From Ilumatobacteraceae bacterium (GTDB lineage Bacteria > Actinomycetota > Acidimicrobiia > Acidimicrobiales > Ilumatobacteraceae), in NCBI GenBank assembly GCA_023262255.1, contig JALRBT010000002.1:1-53965 (forward strand): DNA of 53,965 nt, read 5' to 3'. The position numbers were made by a program, and so were the translations under genes. The notes beneath the pieces were generated by a model. It made no database searches and was not told the DNA's origin. It saw nothing but the letters and a program-made list of their open reading frames with translations. This document shows, in pieces, positions 20,035 to 21,735 of the stretch. Every line of letters begins with the position of its first letter. The first letter of the stretch is position 1.

Positions 20035-20096
20035 GGGGGCTCCACGGGAGAGGTGGGGTGGAATGGTTGACAGTGGGGGGAAGTGGGGGATAGCGT
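20021..20096 (+). promoter_or_regulatory. dcw promoter with phased G-run array (candidate MraZ boxes)
   Basis: GTGGGG at 20053, 20073, 20083 (10-bp register; degenerate ATGGTT at 20063); TTGACA 20067-20072, N18, TAGCGT 20091-20096. Confidence 0.75.
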
Positions 20097-20160
20097 TCGG
20101 GGCGATGGGGTCACCCATCACGGGATCCGAGCAGTCGGATGGGAAGGAAGACAGCGGAAG

Positions 20161-20577
20161 ATGTTCGTCGGATTACACGAACGACAACTCGATCCAAAGG
20201 GTCGTGTTGCACTTCCCGCCGCATTTCGTCCGCGCCTCGAGCCGCGTTGCTACCTGCAGATGGGCGCCGACAAGTGCGTCGACATTCTCACTGCCGAGGC
20301 ATTCGAGGACGTCGCCAAGGACGTCATCGAGAAGGTTCGTCGCGGCGAGATGGATCGCGTCCAACAGCGCGCCCTGGCCGCAAGCGCAGTGGAGGTTGCG
20401 GTCGACGCCCAGGGTCGAATCAACATCGACGAAAAGTTGCGCACGTACGCCGGGCTCACGCTGGACTCACGCGTGGTGATCAGCGGGTCGTTCGATCGCT
20501 GCGAAATCTGGGATCCGTCACGTCACCAACGAATCAGCGAAGCGGGTGCCGAGCAGATGGCCGGCGGCGCCTCATGA
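20161..20577 (+). CDS. mraZ: Transcriptional regulator MraZ
   Basis: MFVGLHERQLDPKGRVALPAAFRPRL and second half-repeat VDAQGRINIDEKLRTYAGL; SD AAGGAAG upstream. Confidence 0.95.
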   Translation: MFVGLHERQLDPKGRVALPAAFRPRLEPRCYLQMGADKCVDILTAEAFEDVAKDVIEKVRRGEMDRVQQRALAASAVEVAVDAQGRINIDEKLRTYAGLTLDSRVVISGSFDRCEIWDPSRHQRISEAGAEQMAGGAS

Positions 20578-20614
20578 CGTTCGGTCACGAGAACATGACG
20601 TTCAACCACGAAAA
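20573..20614. repeat. 21-bp tandem repeat over the mraZ stop codon
   Basis: catgacgttcggtcacgagaa / catgacgttcaaccacgaaaa. Confidence 0.75.
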
Positions 20615-20668
20615 CAGAAGGGAGAACCGAGGCACACTTCGACGCGACCACTGGTCACGTTGAGGTTT

Positions 20669-20788
20669 CGCTCATCAGCAGTCTCCCGGTCAGCAAAGAT
20701 GGACAGCCCCAACTCCGCCCGCTTCCGTCTTCGTCATCCGGGGAGAAATCCCGGAGACAAATGTTGGCCGGGGGACTGCTGATGAGCG
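20669..20788 (+). promoter_or_regulatory. Candidate structured mRNA leader of rsmH with long-range helix sequestering SD and start codon
   Basis: Arms 20669-20689 CGCTCATCAGCAGTCTCCCGG and 20768-20788 CCGGGGGACTGCTGATGAGCG pair over 21 bp (one G.U as RNA); internal hairpin 20737-20755 TCCGGG-GAGAAAT-CCCGGA. Confidence 0.75.
20699..20782 (+). CDS. Possible 27-codon leader ORF MDSPNSARFRLRHPGRNPGDKCWPGDC coupled to rsmH
   Basis: ATG at 20699; TGA 20780-20782 overlaps rsmH ATG 20782-20784 (TGATG); weak SD. Confidence 0.35.
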   Translation: MDSPNSARFRLRHPGRNPGDKCWPGDC

Positions 20789-21735
20789 AGATCCACGAAC
20801 CAGTGATGATCGCAGAGATCGTCGAACTGTTCGCGATAGTCCCCAACGGAGTGTTGCTCGATGCAACGCTCGGGATGGCGGGACACGCAACGGCGATACT
20901 CCGGCGACACGCAGGTCTGCATGTAGTGGGGATCGATCGAGACATGATGGCCATCGAGCACGCAATCGAAGTGAAGAACTCGCTGGGCGACGCCGACGCG
21001 CGGCGTTTCACCGCGGTGCACGCAAGATTCGACCGTGCCGCCGAGGTGCTCGGGCGGCTCGGCATCACGCGGCTGTCAGGCGCGCTGTTCGATCTCGGAG
21101 TCTCTTCGCCCCAACTCGACATTGCGGATCGTGGGTTTTCCTACCGGACCGACGCACCCCTCGACATGCGAATGGACCGCAGCGAAACCCTCTCGGCGTG
21201 GCACGTGGTGAACGAATACGACGCCGACACCATCGCCGAACTTCTGCAGCGAAACGCCGACGAACGCTTCGCGAAACGTATCGCCGAGGCCATCGTTGCG
21301 GCCCGACCCATCTCCTCGACCATGCAGTTGGCCGCCGTGGTTACCGCGGCGATTCCCGCGGCGACGCGTCGAAGCGGTGGTCACCCGGCCAAACGCACGT
21401 TCCAGGCCATTCGGATCGAAGTCAACGCCGAGTTGGACATCCTGTCGACGTCGTTGCGCGACGTCATGGCGATGATTGAACCACGAGGACGAATCGCAGT
21501 GTTGTCGTACCACAGTGGTGAGGACCGCATCGTAAAGAACGTCATGCGTGAGACAGAAGTGGATTCGTCTCGCCCGAACATCGCCACCCCGTTCGCCCAC
21601 CCGTCGCGCACGGCCCCCCGTGCGTGGCGCAAGGTCCGTGTGGCGAAACATCCGAGCACCGCGGAGCAGCAGCGAAACCCGCGTGCCTCCTCGGCGCGAC
21701 TGCGCGCGATGGAACGCTGCGAGACGCCCCTATGA
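20782..21735 (+). CDS. rsmH: 16S rRNA (cytosine1402-N4)-methyltransferase
   Basis: HEPVMIAEIVELF, DATLGMAGHA, LFDLGVSSPQLD, GFSYRTDAPLDMRMD, RIAVLSYHSGEDRIVK. Confidence 0.95.
   Translation: MSEIHEPVMIAEIVELFAIVPNGVLLDATLGMAGHATAILRRHAGLHVVGIDRDMMAIEHAIEVKNSLGDADARRFTAVHARFDRAAEVLGRLGITRLSGALFDLGVSSPQLDIADRGFSYRTDAPLDMRMDRSETLSAWHVVNEYDADTIAELLQRNADERFAKRIAEAIVAARPISSTMQLAAVVTAAIPAATRRSGGHPAKRTFQAIRIEVNAELDILSTSLRDVMAMIEPRGRIAVLSYHSGEDRIVKNVMRETEVDSSRPNIATPFAHPSRTAPRAWRKVRVAKHPSTAEQQRNPRASSARLRAMERCETPL

Follow-up and report, generated by a model that had tools for sequence, protein, structure and literature searches.

Why an rRNA methyltransferase gene belongs to the division and cell-wall operon has long been puzzling. 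For the DNA between mraZ and rsmH, two questions were asked: what RNA precedes rsmH here, and does it control the translation of this gene? The window, that is, the whole stretch of 53,965 nucleotides of an Ilumatobacteraceae genome that was analyzed, had been given a preliminary description in which a long-range RNA helix hides the ribosome-binding site and start codon of rsmH and acts as an ON/OFF switch.

Structure of the leader RNA

The leader is flanked by two genes on the forward strand of the window, mraZ (20161–20577) and rsmH (mraW; 20782–21735). The mraZ product matched TIGR00242 with an E-value of 6.4e-21, below the curated cut-off, and its start codon was inferred from homology, while the product of rsmH, the 16S rRNA C1402 N4-methyltransferase, scored 282.6 bits against TIGR00006 (cut-off, 154.3). 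Upstream of mraZ, at 20040–20100, there were repeated TGGGG/GTGGGG motifs around a TTGACA sequence, which resemble MraZ operator boxes. The sequence statements of the preliminary description were all correct when checked on the letters of the window: 20669–20689 is complementary to 20768–20788 with one G.U, the rsmH Shine-Dalgarno-like sequence GGGGGA and the AUG lie at 20770–20775 and 20782, and the hairpin TCCGGG-GAGAAAT-CCCGGA and the segment CCGGAGAC lie at 20737–20755 and 20751–20758, respectively. The helix, designated P1, exceeded these 21 positions. It consisted of approximately 31 bp, including G.U, between a 5' arm (GUUUCGCUCAUCAGCAGUCUCCCGGUCAGCA, 20665–20695) and a 3' arm (20762–20792), starting 87 nt after the mraZ stop codon and closing a three-helix RNA (P1, P2, and P3) between the two genes. 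Both arms were found in the predicted fold and in the match (20665–20792) of R1, a covariance model built from 15 sequences; the 5' arm was supported also by covariation, and the 3' arm by an inverted-repeat search. That search gave 28-nt arms at 20668–20695 and 20762–20789 with 89% Watson-Crick pairing; of the nine inverted repeats in the 54-kb window whose arms measured at least 18 nt and lay no more than 200 nt from each other, this one was the longest. The 171-nt RNA folded at -101.1 kcal/mol, compared with -56.4 ± 4.3 kcal/mol for dinucleotide shuffles (z = -10.4, 0/200), and P1 alone accounted for -60.1 kcal/mol. The 3' arm contained both the GGGGGA sequence and the rsmH AUG (20782–20784; MSEIHEPVM...), which were paired with predicted unpaired probabilities of 0.001 or less, the AUG being 10 nt from the outer end of P1. 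An alternative in-frame AUG (20761–20763; MLAGGLLMSE...), seven codons upstream of the rsmH AUG at the P3/P1 junction, was only partly paired in the window fold and was present in most members of the genus.

P2 was formed by a 5' side (A-GAUGGA-c-AGC, 20697–20707) and a 3' side (GCU-UCCGUC-U, 20721–20730) enclosing the apical loop CCCAACUCCGCCC (20708–20720), and P3 by a 5' side (GUC..CCGGG, 20733–20742) and a 3' side (CCCGG.GAC, 20750–20758) enclosing the loop GAGAAAU (20743–20749). Both helices were supported by the fold and by covariation. Across the class, the parts of the RNA were conserved to different degrees. P1 was long in every P1-bearing member, at about 18–36 bp. P3 with a GAGAMAU loop, the form aligned in most P3-bearing members, was found in the family of the window and in many other families; in several families P3 was missing, replaced by a short 3' junction (GCCAGCGC) under an extended P2, or by nothing. 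The P2 loop (CCCnnACUCCGCCC), which is C-rich and 13–14 nt in size, was near-invariant, with CCGCCC in 84 of 87 distinct loops and in 31 of 33 families, and CUCCGCCC in 80 of the 87. A kissing contact of CUC with GAG between the P2 and P3 loops was considered and set aside; P3-less members count against it, and covariation was uninformative as both segments are invariant.

Covariation and the folded strand

In the 15-sequence R1 alignment, 92.6% of the cells were paired, and 27 pairs were changed on both sides, compared with 12.6 in shuffles, none of which reached 27 (0/500). The 43 held-out P3-bearing loci, taken from families outside model building, had 91.8% standard pair cells against 71.9% when shuffled, and 45 of 48 pairs were changed on both sides against 37 at most in shuffles, although this alignment was fitted to R1, which favors pairing somewhat. 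The excess of double changes extended to P1, P2 (8 of 10 pairs), and P3, including the 5' side of P2 described above. Families that lack P3 showed double changes in 12 of 17 P1 pairs. The arms proposed in the preliminary description are thus conserved and covarying in relatives, and a conserved structured RNA lies between mraZ and rsmH, a point that we regard as practically certain.

Among the inner 18 pairs of P1, G.U pairs (112) outnumbered A.C mismatches (52) under symmetric scoring (p = 3e-6). This asymmetry indicated that the folded strand is the mRNA (the plus, coding strand), and a DNA cruciform or an antisense RNA was rejected on the same ground. A mobile or repeated element was also rejected: the leader RNA is single-copy in the window's own assembly, and every locus of the pattern scan described below lies beside mraZ or rsmH.

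Distribution in the class Acidimicrobiia

Ten congeneric relatives, one of them interrupted by a contig end, showed the same architecture before rsmH, as did ten genomes from different genera within the family or order. Of 396 Acidimicrobiia genomes searched with R1, 273 contained the RNA, as a rule at one locus; a second match, where listed, was nearly always this palindrome read from the opposite strand. Scanning named genomes for a sequence pattern gave 117 loci, mostly in metagenome assemblies of Acidimicrobiia, with one isolate (Acidiferrimicrobium sp. IK) among the genomes; all loci had mraZ upstream and/or rsmH downstream on the same strand. Some of these genomes bear other names (e.g., Acidobacteria, Bifidobacterium breve), which look like labeling errors because their genes match the Acidimicrobiia group. 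For an unbiased set, 120 rsmH upstream regions of the class were chosen by protein match alone and searched solely for a long helix. P1 was present in 100 of them, from 33 families, at a threshold score of at least 42 (30 mononucleotide shuffles scored 28 on average and 44 at best).

The RNA was thus missing in about a sixth of the sampled class members (approximately 20 of 120). It was present in very small Acidimicrobiia genomes, among others. Relatives without the RNA also occurred within the window's own family (G021, G023, G024, G027, G030, G033, G087, and G312), many of them with a larger genome and a short distance from mraZ to rsmH, which suggests repeated loss. Outside the class, R1 had no match in a phylum-wide sample, in which all 21 matching genomes were Acidimicrobiia. 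Five of eleven borderline R2 matches outside the class were examined, and none had mraZ or rsmH alongside. Likewise, none of 60 rsmH upstream regions from other classes had the P2 loop in a comparable helix. The leader RNA is class-specific as far as sampled, and in the explanation favored below it is ancient in the class Acidimicrobiia. A long hairpin did occur in a few of the 60 regions, namely, members of RF01746 and, independently of these, two genomes of family f55. In the f55 loci (L382 and L387), rsmH was directly preceded by a helix of another kind, of 16 bp (TTTGCCGGCTGAGAGT/GCTCTCAGCCGGCAAA and TTTGTTGGCTGGAGTT/GACTTCAGCCAACAAA); the two showed compensatory differences and had the loop segment CCTTGGGCGGG in common. 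This is possibly another rsmH leader RNA family.

Position of the rsmH start codon in P1

An in-frame ATG or GTG of rsmH was located within the 3' arm of P1 at 59 of the 100 P1 loci, in 22 of the 33 families, including distant ones, and in leaders of the window type the rsmH start lies 10 nt from the outer end of P1. At the other 41 loci the search of this arm revealed no in-frame start of rsmH, and the aligned start was often tens of nucleotides downstream; therefore, sequestration cannot fully explain the function of the RNA at every locus. Start sequestration is common, not universal, and is probably ancestral. At several loci whose rsmH start lies downstream of P1 (L122, L183, L114, L101, and others), the start codon in P1 often opened a short reading frame of about 7–40 codons that stopped close to the rsmH start or ran past it. 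Such frames are possible leader peptides or sites of translational coupling.

These results retained one part of the switch proposed in the preliminary description and removed another. The long-range helix is conserved and covarying, and hiding of the ribosome-binding site and AUG recurs across families. The proposed ON helix, in which the 3' half of the left arm pairs with CCGGAGAC, covaried no better than shuffles, and it needs P3, which is missing in many families; apart from this helix, no mutually exclusive alternative structure was found. Coupling through ribosomes that end on mraZ was rejected as well, since the mraZ stop codon lies a median of 63.5 nt before P1, so that terminating ribosomes would rarely cover its 5' arm.

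Resemblance of the P2 loop to 16S rRNA

The P2 loop is the proposed recognition site of the leader, and it resembles 16S rRNA at 1396–1404, around C1402. The loop segment ACUCCGCCCG agreed in 9 of 10 bases with 16S rRNA ACACCGCCCG (1396–1405), which surrounds C1402, the target of RsmH. The 16S rRNA used for the comparison came from a relative, the window's assembly being without 16S, and in it the C1402 site was the sole match of at least 9 of 10 bases to the loop. Letter permutations of the loop reached a 9/10 match in 365 of 20000 cases (1.8%; p about 0.02), so the resemblance is suggestive only. When rRNA was scanned with the full-length loop profile, the C1402 site was not ranked first, and the 5' half of the loop was unmatched, its conserved CCCC having no 16S counterpart. 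For METTL15, the human homologue of RsmH, binding of short RNAs is mainly via the backbone and not sequence-specific (PMC10828496). RsmH is the best candidate for a protein reading the P2 loop, and we put it forward tentatively. That RsmH represses its own translation class-wide by binding, and perhaps methylating, a C1402 mimic in this loop is a more speculative proposal, under which the demand for decoding-site methylation would be sensed directly and tied to the cell-wall and division operon.

Discussion

The leader is a strongly supported RNA family in most Acidimicrobiia sampled, positioned where the division and cell-wall operon begins. Translational control of rsmH by this RNA is highly probable. 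The P2 loop, for its part, is probably a protein-binding site, as judged from its sequence conservation. As a whole, we favor the explanation that the RNA is a cis-acting rsmH leader whose P2 loop is read by a trans-acting factor, most likely RsmH, and we consider this reading reasonably likely to be correct. P1 (about 20–35 bp) would form once its 3' arm is transcribed and would bury the rsmH Shine-Dalgarno sequence and start codon in most lineages, giving a default state of no or low translation. A trans-acting RNA-binding factor would then read the near-invariant P2 loop, the sole constant part of the RNA and for that reason the one to which we assign this role. P3 would be an accessory element in some lineages of the class, and binding at the P2 loop would set whether P1 stays closed. 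If the factor is RsmH, drawn to a loop that mimics its 16S site (ACNCCGCCCG around C1402), autogenous feedback would match the supply of RsmH to unmethylated 30S subunits, like ribosomal protein leaders. A P1 of -60 kcal/mol does not open merely on the departure of a protein; kinetic control, cleavage, a helicase, or a ribosome is needed.

Cleavage of P1 is the core of an alternative in which RNase III cuts the duplex, separating the mraZ mRNA from that of rsmH and freeing the rsmH start (or leaving it nearly leaderless), so that the RNA would be a switch for both maturation and activation. A near-perfect duplex of 18–36 bp in 100 of 120 loci would suit this enzyme, each of the 24 genomes tested had RNase III (TIGR02191), those of 0.9–1.1 Mb included, and cutting would reconcile so stable a helix with expression. 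However, an RNase III site needs the duplex only, which leaves the invariant P2 loop and the conserved P3 and junction unexplained, and the enzyme also occurs in relatives without the RNA, which makes its occurrence uninformative here. We consider this alternative unlikely.

The conserved, C-rich P2 loop could instead be read by another RNA-binding protein, such as the KH proteins KhpA/KhpB, which would link cell-division gene expression to KH protein activity. KH domains often prefer C-rich RNA. A KhpA/B-type KH domain was present in 24 of 24 genomes tested, and in the window's own incomplete assembly it was seen below the cut-off only. In the account of pneumococcus in PMC6403258, KhpA and EloR/KhpB control elongation and division, which was counted for this reading. 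These proteins are, however, equally present in genomes that lack the RNA and have no sequence link to rsmH, and their involvement seems improbable to us.

We have strong doubts about a metabolite riboswitch, for SAM or a cell-wall precursor, for example, with P2 and P3 as the aptamer. The three-way junction, the two conserved loops, and the nearness, at the start of the dcw operon, to a SAM-dependent enzyme would agree with it, but P3 can vanish and the junction can be replaced while the P2 loop alone stays, which is easier to reconcile with a protein that binds a hairpin than with an aptamer pocket; furthermore, there was neither a conserved alternative helix nor a match to an Rfam riboswitch. 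A static, regulator-free hairpin that keeps rsmH translation low or stabilizes the downstream mRNA would account for start sequestration and for the approximately 20 of 120 genomes that manage without the RNA, but it would need no near-invariant loop across 31 families and is very improbable.

Under the explanation that we favor, a leader that senses RsmH demand would provide a direct link between ribosome assembly and cell division, and the near-invariant P2 loop is a concrete bait in a search for the regulator.

Comparison with known leader RNAs

In an Rfam cmscan of the window and 14 divergent members, no significant riboswitch or leader family was detected, only sub-threshold chance matches, and no description of an Acidimicrobiia rsmH leader RNA was found in the literature. 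The nearest known RNA is the mraW RNA motif (Rfam RF01746; Weinberg 2010, PMC2864571), of which the preliminary description had considered the leader a possible member. The two are alike in being actinobacterial, in lying before the same gene, rsmH, and in having a long helix near the rsmH start and a C-rich apical loop. However, RF01746 is one unbranched long hairpin with a conserved ACUUCCCC apical loop (CACUUCCCC), with neither the CCGCCC loop nor a three-way junction, whereas the Acidimicrobiia leader has the P2 loop CCCAACUCCGCCC and a separate P3. RF01746 had no match in the window at the gathering threshold (50 bits), nor at E ≤ 10 in 20540–20900, and none of 100 class genomes was above the cut-off, while the Corynebacterium glutamicum control was matched. 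Conversely, R1 gave only chance-level matches in RF01746 loci. Membership in RF01746 was thus ruled out by scores, fold, and loop, and the differences in fold and loop, together with the lack of cross-matches, indicated that the Acidimicrobiia leader is a separate RNA family at the same gene. By these sequence comparisons and its predicted fold, it is a new, uncatalogued rsmH leader RNA family. Some members of RF01746 (L045, L046, and L389) have a G-rich Shine-Dalgarno-like stretch and an AUG or GUG within the 3' arm of their hairpin, so that a start region may be hidden in the known mraW RNA as well.

Two other classes of leader are comparable with the new family. In RNase III-activated leaders of the lambda N and adhE type, a long duplex hides the start region. 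The Acidimicrobiia leader has such a duplex over the start region in common with them, but the RNase III mechanism does not explain its conserved P2 loop. In autogenous ribosomal-protein leaders, an mRNA mimic of the rRNA binding site lets the encoded protein repress its own synthesis. The logic proposed here would be the same, with the difference that the encoded protein is an rRNA methyltransferase and the putative mimic is a short, one-strand loop.
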